In this document: positions 4,490 through 9,470 of the stretch, piece after piece
How positions within the stretch are numbered: position 1 is the stretch's first letter
Layout: each line of letters opens with the position of its first letter
DNA from: Prochlorococcus sp. AG-449-J16
Lineage (GTDB): Bacteria > Cyanobacteriota > Cyanobacteriia > PCC-6307 > Cyanobiaceae
DNA length: 64,000 nt
Assembly: GCA_003209565.1 (NCBI GenBank)
Contig: QCQK01000002.1
Span: 1-64,000 of the forward strand
Direction: 5' to 3'
Notes under the pieces: model-generated
Seen by the model: the letters and a program-made list of their open reading frames with translations, nothing else
Told to the model about the DNA's origin: nothing
The model's database searches: none
Translations under genes and position numbers: made by a program

Positions 4490-4638
4490 ATATTTATTTA
4501 AATTTAAACTATAACAAGAAGATAAATTAACGGCGCGATTAAAATTAATTTATATATTTTATTAATTTATAATATCGGAGAAGTTAGATTATTTATTTAC
4601 TTTTTTGCTATTTAAAAATATATTTTCAAATAGTTTTT

Positions 4639-5319
4639 TTATTTTTTTAGTATATTTAGAGAACTTTTTAAGTTGTTCCAAAAATGCATAAAAAATCCAG
4701 TAGAAAGCAAAAATTCATAAATTTCTAAATCGTTTCTTATGTGTTCAACTGTTGAAGCCCATGATATTTCGTAATAGAAAATATAGAGAGCAGTTATCAA
4801 GAAAAATAAACTAAGGTTTTTACTTGGTATAGATGATAAATAAGGCCATTTTCTCCATCCTATCCATCCAAATAAAATGCAAATTGCTATCAGTAAAGGG
4901 TCTAGAAAATAATTATGAAAAAATGGAAGATTATGTAGATTAGTTTCCCCTTGGATACTTATTTCCGTTAGTGAATTTAAAGTAAAACCTGTTATTCGCT
5001 CTCCCCAACTAATTTCTTCAGCAGCAATAAAAAAGCAAAATGCGCTTAAAGTTAACCAAATGAATGAATTGAGCGAACTTTTATTTTTACTTTTAAAGAA
5101 TATTAAGATGCCAAAAATTGAAGATATGAAATATTCGGAAAACTGTAACCATTCCAAGGGACCATCCTCAACCTTTAATAAATTAAACCAAGTGGTACCA
5201 ACAATATTTTCTCCAAAAGGTAATATGTAAACGAATCCATATATAAATAGGACGTAATAAATAGGGAATAAATTTACTTCAGGAGAAATATTACCCCATG
5301 GTGTTTTAATTATTTTCAA
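4639..5319 (-). CDS. Polytopic membrane protein, hypothetical
   Basis: 226-aa ORF, EEISWGERITGF motif between TM helices. Confidence 0.6.
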   Translation of the reverse strand: MKIIKTPWGNISPEVNLFPIYYVLFIYGFVYILPFGENIVGTTWFNLLKVEDGPLEWLQFSEYFISSIFGILIFFKSKNKSSLNSFIWLTLSAFCFFIAAEEISWGERITGFTLNSLTEISIQGETNLHNLPFFHNYFLDPLLIAICILFGWIGWRKWPYLSSIPSKNLSLFFLITALYIFYYEISWASTVEHIRNDLEIYEFLLSTGFFMHFWNNLKSSLNILKK

Positions 5320-5454
5320 ATTTTTAATGATGATTTCTCTAATACCAGTATTTTATATTAATTTATTTCATAAAAAAAATGTTTTTCATTAATAGATAAT
5401 TTTAATAAAAAAAAACAAAAAAACTTTAAAAATAAAGAATAAAAAATCAGTGGT

Positions 5455-6009
5455 CTATCCTAATGCTGCACTCTTCATTATCAAAAAAATTGAGAAGTAG
5501 TAAAAATAACCACCTGCTAAAGAATAAAAAAATATTATCCTTTTTTTGATATCAGAGGATGCTATAAAAAAGCTTCCTATAGAGAAAGGTAATATAGGAA
5601 AAGTGCGAATTAATAAAATAAAATTTGGTTTTAAAGTGAAGTTTTTTATTGAGCTTAATATTTGGTTAGTTCTGATTTTTTTTGATAAAAAATTTTTCGA
5701 TAATTTGATATCTGTTCTTCTAAAAAATAGAACTTGAATTAAACCTAATAATGCTAAAACTGGTGTGAAAAATATTATATAAATTAAACCAAATGATTTT
5801 ATTAGTATTAAGTCAAACAATATTGATAATGGAAGTCCTAAAGATATAGAAATAATGTTTATTAATATTAAATATTTAAATTCAGTCTCTATTAATAAAT
5901 TATCAAGAATATTGCTATGTCTAAGAAAAAGTGAAAGCAAATAAATTAAAAAATATAAAAAAAATATTTTTACTATTGTCGATTTTAAACTTAAATTTTT
6001 TCTATACAT
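5455..6009 (-). CDS. VTT/DedA-like (TVP38-type) membrane protein
   Basis: FILLIRTFPILPFSIGSFFIA resembles the DedA/VTT conserved re-entrant segment. Confidence 0.5.
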   Translation of the reverse strand: MYRKNLSLKSTIVKIFFLYFLIYLLSLFLRHSNILDNLLIETEFKYLILINIISISLGLPLSILFDLILIKSFGLIYIIFFTPVLALLGLIQVLFFRRTDIKLSKNFLSKKIRTNQILSSIKNFTLKPNFILLIRTFPILPFSIGSFFIASSDIKKRIIFFYSLAGGYFYYFSIFLIMKSAALG

Positions 6010-6713
6010 ATAAGTTGAAACATCCCGAAATTTTTATCAAAGAAAAGTCTTTCAATTTTTCTTATGATTTTAATTATTCTACCTATGCGGGTATTGAAAG
6101 TATGCCCTCCGCTTATTAGATAAGATACTGGCATAATATTTTTTTTCTTAATAAGAGAAAGCATAGGAAATAAATTTTTAAATTTTTTGAAATCTCTCTC
6201 AAATATTATCCATGAGAGTGCTTGGTTTGAATCAAATAGAGGATCTTTGGATTCAAAATTCCAGTTAGATTGTTTTGTATCAAACTTTTCGTGTCCTATA
6301 AATTTATAGACTAATTTACTCCAGAAATTATTACTAGGTTCTATCATTATGATCCTTCCTCCTTCTAAAAGAGATTTTTCTGCCGATTTAAAAAATAATT
6401 CAGGATTACTTACATGATGAAATACGTTAACTAATATTAAATTTGATATTTTGTTCTCAAACTTTTCTCCTACTTCCATTGCATCAAGTTTGAAATCAGT
6501 ATTTGAGTTCAAGAAAACATCTGTCTTCTTAATACTTTGATTTATTTTATTAATAAAACTTGCTCCACATCCTAATTCAATATTAATTCCATCGATAACT
6601 GAAAGATCTTTTGAAATAAGTGAGTACCATTCTTCATAAAGCATACCTAGCGCGGTATTTACTTTTTCGAATCCAATCCTATCTAATGTTATTAATTCGC
6701 CTTGATTATTCAT
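5991..6713 (-). CDS. Class I SAM-dependent methyltransferase
   Basis: IELGCGASFIN (motif I), LVNVFHHVSNPELFFKSAEKSLLEGGRIIMIEP. Confidence 0.75.
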   Translation of the reverse strand: MNNQGELITLDRIGFEKVNTALGMLYEEWYSLISKDLSVIDGINIELGCGASFINKINQSIKKTDVFLNSNTDFKLDAMEVGEKFENKISNLILVNVFHHVSNPELFFKSAEKSLLEGGRIIMIEPSNNFWSKLVYKFIGHEKFDTKQSNWNFESKDPLFDSNQALSWIIFERDFKKFKNLFPMLSLIKKKNIMPVSYLISGGHTFNTRIGRIIKIIRKIERLFFDKNFGMFQLICIEKI

Positions 6714-6850
6714 TTTTTATTTAAAACTAAAAGGGGTTGTCGAAGCTTATAATTCTAGACTTTAACAGAAATTATAAATTACAAATATATTTCAAACTTG
6801 TTTTAAATATTTTAATTCAGCATGCATTTGCAAAATTTTTAATAAGTTTT

Positions 6851-7219
6851 TTAAATTTGACCAGGATCGTTATCTATAGAATTTACGTATAATTCATAAG
6901 CTGTTTCATTACTGTTAGATGCAATTGCATATGAATAAACTTCATAAGCTGTTTCACATCTAAAATTAAGACGGGCTTTCCTGAAGCTATTTATAGCAAA
7001 AACTCCTGCTCCATTAATTGGGTTGTCGTCATAAAGCACTTCTGTAACTGTAAAACCAGATGCTCTTGCAAATCGCCTCGCTTCACTTACGCATTCACTA
7101 GTAGATGAGTATAAACGACCACCAGTAGAGTATACCCACGGGGTTGCTTTTAACGGAAGAATGGTTTGAAATAATCCTGTAGAAAAGGTAAGCAGTAATG
7201 CTTTAAAAAATAATTTCAA
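6851..7219 (-). CDS. Secreted hypothetical protein with C-terminal 16-aa tandem duplication
   Basis: Signal peptide; ETAYEVYSYAIASNSN / ETAYELYVNSIDNDPG. Confidence 0.6.
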   Translation of the reverse strand: MKLFFKALLLTFSTGLFQTILPLKATPWVYSTGGRLYSSTSECVSEARRFARASGFTVTEVLYDDNPINGAGVFAINSFRKARLNFRCETAYEVYSYAIASNSNETAYELYVNSIDNDPGQI

Positions 7220-7377
7220 AATTCAAATAAATTATTATAAATCTTATCCTATAAGAGATTTGTTGTTAATTTTGTTAAAAGTTTAGTGATGTAATAAGGA
7301 TTAAAGATATAAATCTATATTTATGTAATTTTAATATTAATCAAAAATATCTTGAATTTACCTCTTAGATATTAAAG

Positions 7378-7393
7378 CGGAGGGGGTGGGATT
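7378..7393. repeat. Distal att-like copy of the tRNA-Ser 3' end
   Basis: Identical over 16 bp to 8645-8660. Confidence 0.75.
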
Positions 7394-7459
7394 GGCTTAT
7401 GTGCGAAATGACAAGCTATGAGAAGGGATGAGAACAATTTCTGAGTTCGACTTTCATTT

Positions 7460-7483
7460 CCCCTACCATTTCCCCTACCAAAA
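7460..7483. repeat. Iteron pair CCCCTACCATTTCCCCTACCAAAA (left copy)
   Basis: Exact 24-bp match to 8477-8500. Confidence 0.85.
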
Positions 7484-7487
7484 ATTT

Positions 7488-8051
7488 TTACTCAAATTTT
7501 GCATATTTTTTGCAAAGTTTTACTTTCATCGATTCGTAAGCAAGACCAGATAATTCTTTTGGCTGACGCTTACTAAGATTTAGATACTTATCTCCAAAAA
7601 CTTTTGTTAAATAGTTTTCTTTAAGACAGCTAAATTCTTCATAATCCAAAGCATTTTTCTTTTTATTTAAATCAATAAATATTGGTCTAAAAGTTATGTC
7701 GAACCATAATGTTTCATCACTTTTAACTTTGGAAGATTGAGATCTAATAAGATCCAAATCTACTGAATGTACATTTGAATAACCATTCCAAAAAGCGTAA
7801 GTATTCTCGCAATAAGAAAATTCTTGTGGATTTTTCCTTCCTCCTAAATTTCTAACACATCTAAAATAAGCTGCTCTATTTTTTAATTCGTCCTCTTTTA
7901 TAGATGCAATTAAATAATTTAAATTTCTTGGCGCAACCATTATTGCAGATTTTTTAGCTATGTATTTTTCACCTAAGTCAGTTTTCACAACAATGTCACT
8001 CGTGCAGCCTGATAATGCAATTAAAAGCGGTGCAAGTAGTAAGCGTTTCAT
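7488..8051 (-). CDS. Putative lipoprotein, hypothetical
   Basis: MKRLLLAPLLIALSGCTSD lipobox. Confidence 0.65.
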   Translation of the reverse strand: MKRLLLAPLLIALSGCTSDIVVKTDLGEKYIAKKSAIMVAPRNLNYLIASIKEDELKNRAAYFRCVRNLGGRKNPQEFSYCENTYAFWNGYSNVHSVDLDLIRSQSSKVKSDETLWFDITFRPIFIDLNKKKNALDYEEFSCLKENYLTKVFGDKYLNLSKRQPKELSGLAYESMKVKLCKKYAKFE

Positions 8052-8078
8052 TCGAGGAATTTAGTTTAATTAATACAT

Positions 8079-8399
8079 TTAATATTGGAAATTAAATTGA
8101 TTCATCGGTTTTGCATAGCCTGATTCCGTACACTCAAAGGTTATTGGCATTCGCATTCCAAAGGCATTTAGACCGCTCGCATAGATTTTGCCATCAAAGG
8201 CACTTTCTATTTTTGGCTTTCTAGCTATTTGTCTTTTTGCACTACCTTTACATTTTCTAAGAAGTTTTGCCTCATCACTAAAAGCACCTTCTTTTTTTGA
8301 ATTTGCATTAACTATGATTCCAACACCTATTGCTAGGAAAATCAATGTGACAACAGCAAAGGCTCTTTGTTGTTTTGCTTTTTTGGAGATTTCTACCAT
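8079..8399 (-). CDS. Single-TM hypothetical protein
   Basis: N-terminal TM (AFAVVTLIFLAIGVGIIV), 27 bp upstream of the lipoprotein gene. Confidence 0.6.
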   Translation of the reverse strand: MVEISKKAKQQRAFAVVTLIFLAIGVGIIVNANSKKEGAFSDEAKLLRKCKGSAKRQIARKPKIESAFDGKIYASGLNAFGMRMPITFECTESGYAKPMNQFNFQY

Positions 8400-8455
8400 A
8401 AAAAAAAGAGCTTATTGCCCCTTATTTTAGATCGAATTTTAAAACTGAACTCAAA

Positions 8456-8500
8456 CCCCTACCAATTACAACAAAACCCCTACCATTTCCCCTACCAAAA
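8456..8500. repeat. Three CCCCTACCA iterons (8456-8464, 8477-8485, 8489-8497)
   Basis: Direct reading; shares 24-mer with 7460-7483. Confidence 0.85.
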
Positions 8501-8644
8501 TGATGAGGAAATATGAAAACAAATGAGAAAGTATGAGAAGGCTAAATTAAGTTTAATTATTGATATATCTCCTTTTTGGAAGCTTTAAAATAATTTTGAG
8601 AACATATGAGAAGGTATGGTAACTTCTGAGAATATGTCTTGGTA

Positions 8645-8731
8645 CGGAGGGGGTGGGATTCGAACCCACGGTGCCCTTGCAGACACGCTAGTTTTCAAGA
8701 CTAGAGCCTTAAACCACTCGACCACCCCTCC
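8645..8731 (-). tRNA. tRNA-Ser(UGA)
   Basis: Reverse complement GGAGGGGTGGTCGAGTGGTTTAAGGCTCTAGTCTTGAAAACTAG...GTGGGTTCGAATCCCACCCCCTCCG; anticodon TGA, long variable arm. Confidence 0.97.
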
Positions 8732-9018
8732 AGTTGGTGGCGAAATTTAAATAACTTTTAAATTCTAGCAGAAGGGTTAATCAAATCCGAAGAGTTTAAT
8801 TAGAAATAATTAAATAAAAATTTACATTGAATTGTTTCCAGTTTAATTAGGAGCCAAATATATTTTGAATCTTTGATTTAAGTTGTTTAAAGTTTATCTG
8901 AGAAAGAAAGACATCCAATAAAAAAAGGTATTAAATCTAATAAAAGCCTTTAATCTAGTTTTTGGGGCTTTTATATGTTAAAAATAAATATTACTTTTAT
9001 TAATTGAAAAAATAAAAA

Positions 9019-9433: not shown

Positions 9434-9470
9434 TTTCAAGATTAGAGCCTTAACCTTTTGACCACCCTCA
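9434..9470 (-). pseudogene. Degenerate 5'-half of tRNA-Ser
   Basis: TTTCAAGATTAGAGCCTTAA...GACCACCC versus TTTCAAGACTAGAGCCTTAA...GACCACCC in the intact tRNA (first 20 nt with one mismatch). Confidence 0.75.

Follow-up and report, generated by a model that had tools for sequence, protein, structure and literature searches.

A small cassette at tRNA-Ser(TGA) in Prochlorococcus with putative lambda-type attL and attR ends and family-specific iterons

Introduction

Lambda-type (heterobivalent) tyrosine integrases, such as IntS of KplE1, contact two kinds of site: arms through the N-terminal domain and core through the C-terminal domain (PMC2951348). Cis-mobilizable elements (CIMEs) have att sites and lack genes for integration and transfer; they occur in tandem arrays at an RNA gene, beside autonomous relatives (PMC5704250). 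The ssrA islands of Dehalococcoides, which are also integrase-less, use a serine recombinase (PMC3146451). Within Prochlorococcus itself, tycheposons are tRNA-associated cargo islands of 4-200 kb with a tyrosine recombinase (described second-hand in PMC10872708). The same paper describes the additive island fGI-2 of the Methylophilaceae, in which variable cargo units (330 bp upwards) each follow a repeat of the last 20 bp of the tRNA gene.

Here we analyze an element of 1.27 kb, measured core to core, at the 3' end of a tRNA-Ser(TGA) gene of Prochlorococcus sp. AG-449-J16, located in a contig stretch of 64,000 nucleotides (hereafter, the window). Like lambda-type att sites, the element has a core-type site at both ends and arm-type repeats on each side; unlike them, it has no integrase, many families with differing arms share its tRNA core, and its arm sites are putative. 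By analogy, the element works like a CIME, in that it retains attL and attR without integrase or transfer genes, and the tandem arrays at one RNA gene and the adjoining autonomous relatives are further points of likeness. Its ends differ from those of the Dehalococcoides ssrA islands in being of the tyrosine-integrase type with matched iterons. With tycheposons it shares the Prochlorococcus host and tRNA-associated cargo, its own insertion at a tRNA being confirmed. However, because it is smaller than the 4-200 kb given in PMC10872708 and encodes no recombinase, we have not filed it as a tycheposon, and the account of tycheposons in that paper makes no mention of iteron address tags. The arrays of variable cargo behind tRNA-end repeats also recall fGI-2, which differs in its target (tRNA-Lys) and taxon, and for which the description in PMC10872708 reports no iterons. 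The end structure is different again from that of an integron gene cassette, with its attC site and IntI integrase. What our comparison adds is that the iterons appear to behave as family-specific tags at conserved positions, with tag identity going with the N-terminal region of the integrase.

Results

The element extends from 7378 to 8660, and its features are collected in Table 1. All five copies of CCCCTACCA in the window fall within 7460-8497, compared to 0.11 copies expected, and five or more copies were reached in none of 100 shuffles. For TATGAGAAGG, which is part of a less strict group of five ATGAGAA-like direct repeats, 0.23 copies were expected and three were reached in 1 of 100 shuffles. 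The 24-bp blocks at 7460-7483 and 8477-8500 are identical. A recount over the 64 kb reproduced exactly the iteron coordinates, the 24-bp block, and the TATGAGAAGG positions of the initial annotation. Elsewhere in the same genome there are five further CCCCTACCA sites, all single (0/5 paired), in 16S/23S rRNA or apparently protein-coding sequence.

Table 1. Features of the element at tRNA-Ser(TGA), in window coordinates
Feature	Position	Strand	Observation
Left core, displaced copy of the tRNA-Ser(TGA) 3' end, CGGAGGGGGTGGGATT	7378-7393	+	Identical to 8645-8660 (16 bp); backbone flank of relatives stops here and element begins
Left arm (P'-like), core to iterons; contains ATGAGAA-type repeats, one of them TATGAGAAGG (7417-7426)	7394-7459	+	Kept in 7 elements with unrelated cargo
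Left pair of iterons, CCCCTACCA at 7460 and 7472 (period 12 bp); putative arm-type sites for an integrase	7460-7480	+	+82/+94 from core start in 7/7 family elements measured
Cargo ORF, 187 aa, lipoprotein-like start (MKRLLLAPLLIALSGC)	7488-8051	-	No Pfam or PHROG match; missing from the G179 element
Cargo ORF, 106 aa	8079-8399	-	The G179 element has this protein sequence too; Pfam gave no match
Three iterons on the right, CCCCTACCA at 8456, 8477, and 8489; putative arm-type sites for an integrase	8456-8497	+	-189/-168/-156 from right core in 6/7 measured family members
Right arm (P-like); contains ATGAGAA-type repeats, two of them TATGAGAAGG (8532-8541 and 8605-8614)	8498-8644	+	Kept in 7 elements with unrelated cargo
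Intact tRNA-Ser(TGA), with right core and integration target at its 3' end (8645-8660)	8644-8732	-	ARAGORN

Neither of the two ORFs has integrase similarity, so that no integrase was found inside the element, and it encodes no transfer genes. A search of phage DNA gave no match. An IS element or MITE was rejected, as terminal inverted repeats are absent: the ends carry direct repeats, and no inverted repeat pairs them.

Two other features of the neighborhood were observed. At 9434-9470, ~740 bp from the matching half of the intact gene, lies a degraded 5'-half copy of tRNA-Ser; roughly a dozen other loci have a 5'-half copy at +165 to +167 bp. On the other side, 4576-7378 is a possible older neighboring element, with a degenerate core (CGGAGAAGTTAGATT) at 4576, after a backbone gene, and a methyltransferase-like ORF at 5991-6713; no iterons were recognized in it by eye.

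Among 266 genomes of the genus, the CCCCTACC pair (at most one mismatch) occurs 15 times in eight genomes, every time beside a tRNA-Ser(TGA) 3'-end core. No pair was seen at an unrelated locus in this set; wide occurrence at such loci was what the initial annotation had named as speaking against a role in integration. The position of the pair is constant, 82 nt inside the left core and ~168 nt ahead of the right core, and both ends are conserved in the seven elements compared (66 bp from core to iterons on the left, 147 bp from iterons to core on the right). Empty sites also exist in relatives (e.g., G300, L074); there, the left flank matches that of occupied sites (e.g., G480, L120) up to CGGAGGGGGTG, the element start, which constitutes the first 11 nt of the left core and is the part of it common to the whole class. 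Thus, as in lambda-type attL and attR, identical cores match the end of the target gene and relatives have the empty site. Tandem neighboring elements are present at this tRNA as well.

The cargo between these ends, 0.8-4.8 kb from iterons to iterons, is unrelated across most members of the family, whose elements measure 0.25-5.1 kb core to core. It includes lipoprotein-like and small secreted proteins, a TPR protein, a T5orf172 protein, a PD-(D/E)XK/Cas4-like protein, and a SHOCT-domain protein. The only overlap among the elements compared is the 106-aa ORF, common to the window and G179, in which the left-hand cargo differs. The G509 element is cargo-less, 249 bp core to core, with the left pair directly joined to the right arm; the seventh measured family member in Table 1 is cargo-less and has no separate right triple. 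Conserved ends around unrelated cargo suggest that a cassette format has been reused, rather than that a single ICE or IME has decayed.

Cargo-less elements of exactly 249 bp were in fact observed twice, in different iteron families (L121 13657-13906 in G509 and L084 11207-11456 in G238). Both have the right arm fused onto the left iteron pair, as would result if identical iteron pairs had recombined and the cargo had been lost.

Other elements at the same tRNA carry CTGCCAACA, CCCAAACACA, CCCCCAGTA, CACCCAACA, or CCACCAACA in the equivalent positions. The comparison of iterons across tRNA-linked islands, which had been proposed from the window alone, thereby yielded 19 elements in six iteron families with one layout. 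The longest string common to an element's own left and right ends was 12-26 nt (median 21), versus a median of 8 and a maximum of 12 nt when ends were compared across families (n=272). In 19 of 19 elements, 82-85 nt separate the core start from the beginning of the left pair, whose period is 11-12 bp, and the right-end sites lie ~110-200 nt from the core; the same motif is therefore present on both sides at fixed spacing, as it is in lambda-type attL and attR. The core-proximal ATGAGAA repeats vary between families in parallel with the iterons. Such constancy of spacing with changing sequence is expected if the sites bind protein within a nucleoprotein complex of fixed architecture.

An 8.85-kb integrase-less element with CACCCAACA iterons (L088 2495-11345, G229) has ORFs that by eye resemble a type I restriction-modification system, together with a metal-dependent hydrolase-like ORF. 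At L060-L069, L078, L092, L093, and L095, we observed tandem partial tRNA-Ser copies that end at the anticodon loop and have a shorter class of iterons with an 11-bp period (TATGACCG, GTGAGCC, GTTCACC, TACCCG), implying that crossover may also take place at a second point of this tRNA.

At tRNA-Asn(GTT), tRNA-Ser(CGA), tRNA-Ser(GCT), and tRNA-Ser(TGA), the layout recurs in elements with a tyrosine integrase gene, and each displaced core equals the final 11-12 nt of the tRNA in question. The example at the window's own tRNA-Ser(TGA), in G375, has an AlpA gene and an integrase: the AlpA-family protein (Pfam PF05930, above cut-off) is encoded between the left pair and the integrase, which matches PHROG 1 (integrase) at 2e-36. 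Thus, same-layout relatives are associated with tyrosine recombinases, with iterons other than CCCCTACCA. The closest integrase-linked iteron to CCCCTACCA is TCCCCACCA, at tRNA-Asn, which accompanies the integrase of G516; this integrase and that of G375 rank as the closest of the AlpA-linked class. A second integrase family (L124-L146) flanks tRNA-Ser(TGA) at its 5' side and has iterons of its own close upstream of the integrase gene.

The initial annotation had reasoned that the element may be recognized by a recombinase encoded elsewhere. In agreement with this, the element is integrase-less, and its own genome (81% complete) yielded no integrase of the AlpA-linked class. However, an integrase with exactly CCCCTACCA iterons was not found in the 266 genus genomes, and a search for the iterons next to a tyrosine recombinase gene of the same genome failed: both candidate helpers, C4 near tRNA-Arg and C12, were rejected, since neither neighborhood contains the CCCCTACCA iterons.

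C12 (L018 2653-3813) is a 386-aa chromosomal tyrosine recombinase. Matches of similar length (386-404 aa) are present in most genus genomes, away from the tRNA-Ser loci fetched, and the N-terminal stretch of C12 resembles that of the 5'-side integrases (SLPSK...ISLGLKAD).

A scan of viral contigs found the CCCCTACC pair with 12-bp spacing in only three (L054, L055, and L056), which are high-GC and interrelated. Here the pair immediately precedes a small gene for a helix-turn-helix (excisionase-like) protein, HTH_17 in the one scanned, and no tRNA was found beside these pairs. We set these contigs aside as evidence for the role of the iterons, as the similarity may be convergent.

We compared iterons with the putatively arm-binding N-terminal region of the integrase (its first 92-97 residues) by partial Mantel tests in two integrase families. 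Iteron similarity correlated with N-terminal similarity when the rest of the protein was controlled for (partial r 0.54, p 0.0004, n=12 and partial r 0.54, p 0.0006, n=11), p-values that are indicative, as the element and protein sets and the iteron strings were hand-chosen after viewing the data. With control for the N-terminal part, there was no correlation between iteron similarity and the rest of the integrase in either family. No named arm-binding domain was recognized in the N-terminal region in Pfam.

The 5'-side family provides a natural exchange of these regions. Its backbone A, 92-97% identical beyond the N-terminal region, is found with three N-terminal types, two of which are also present on backbone B, which is ~62-65% identical to A. 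Named by iteron, the N-terminal types of the integrases include AGTCCACC, AGGCCACC, and AGTCCACG; on both backbones, AGTCCACC and AGGCCACC iterons are each tied to their own N-terminal type. Linkage may explain part of this pattern, as iterons lie close upstream of the N-terminal codons in this family. In the AlpA-linked class, matched iterons are also present kilobases away, at the other element end, and for this reason linkage does not explain the pattern there.

Individual residues of the 5'-side integrases were also observed to change with the iteron: VTIQ together with QQR accompanies GGCC, and VTIY together with QQW or QQY accompanies GTCC or GTTC. This co-variation is suggestive of a readable recognition code.

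Discussion

At 7378-8660, the core is duplicated, the iterons match between the ends at fixed spacing, the same ends surround unrelated cargo in relatives, and no integrase is encoded inside. We regard it as highly probable that this is a small, non-autonomous cassette bounded by the attL and attR of a lambda-type tyrosine-integrase reaction, with the iterons as arm sites and mobilization in trans. The proposal that core plus flanking iterons represent attL and attR of the lambda type was already made in the initial annotation; it is now strengthened by the left-right match within elements, the difference between families, the fixed distance to the core, and the occurrence of the same layout on integrase-encoding relatives.

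How this would work can be proposed. The CCCCTACCA copies would serve as arm-type sites, to which an integrase would bind through its N-terminal domain. Ends of this element's type are known from integrated copies only; joined on an excised circle, they would read three iterons, ~156 bp, core, ~66 bp, and two iterons, which would be the P/core/P' order of an attP-like site. The core-proximal ATGAGAA repeats are plausible sites for an excisionase, AlpA-like in relatives, or for another bending protein. Because the element has no integrase, integration and excision would be catalyzed in trans by the cognate integrase of another element, probably one of the AlpA-linked class; given that no integrase with CCCCTACCA iterons was found, mobilization in trans is a step that we infer.

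Other readings of the same data were considered. The att sites could be genuine and the cassette a fixed remnant of a former integrase-bearing element that is immobile now, as might be expected from the failure to find a cognate integrase among the 266 genus genomes and from the att remnants common at this locus, such as the degraded tRNA 5' half at 9434 and the cargo-less 249-bp elements in two families. Yet arms and iterons are conserved over eight species-level genomes while the cargo differs, which fits repeated reuse of the ends and not one decaying ancestor, and we consider the remnant explanation rather unlikely, though the most serious of those weighed here. Conserved ends with different cargo would also arise if RecA exchanged cargo between conserved tRNA-flanking ends by homologous recombination and the iterons had no integrase role. 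The right-hand ORF that is common to G179 and the window, with a different left side, would fit such an exchange, and the identical 24-bp block would permit deletions such as the 249-bp forms. However, exchange by RecA leaves unexplained the sequence-independent spacing, the left-right match in six unrelated iteron families, and the association with the integrase N-terminal region; it is improbable as the full account and may operate in addition to site-specific movement.

Plasmid origins, too, typically have short direct repeats spaced by about one helical turn, and so the iterons might be bound by a replication initiator (Rep), or be operators of another regulator, rather than serve as integrase arm sites. 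We find this very improbable, as the element has no recognizable initiator gene, copies are present at both ends at fixed distances from the att core, and iteron similarity tracks integrase N-terminal sequence. Finally, the region is AT-rich and short repeats are frequent in it, but an origin by chance or from common low-complexity repeats is refuted by five copies versus 0.11 expected and by conserved positions in eight genomes, leaving it a negligible probability.

Returning to a cassette moved by a lambda-type integrase, the different iterons of families that have a common tRNA target make the iteron a candidate address tag of its family. We therefore propose, with the balance of probability at its midpoint, that families at one tRNA are kept separate by their own arm iteron, read by an exchangeable N-terminal domain of the integrase, and that integrase-less cassettes ride on the integrase of the family with the matching tag.

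In marine picocyanobacteria, genomes are small, yet the pool of variable genes at tRNA loci is very large. Should the mobile unit be defined by its ends and not by its genes, many apparently anonymous tRNA-side ORFs would become cassettes, and a 9-bp tag could reveal their family and potential helper. The natural pairing of N-terminal type with iteron type, including the same two types on two catalytic backbones, would make the arm-recognition code of tyrosine integrases directly testable.
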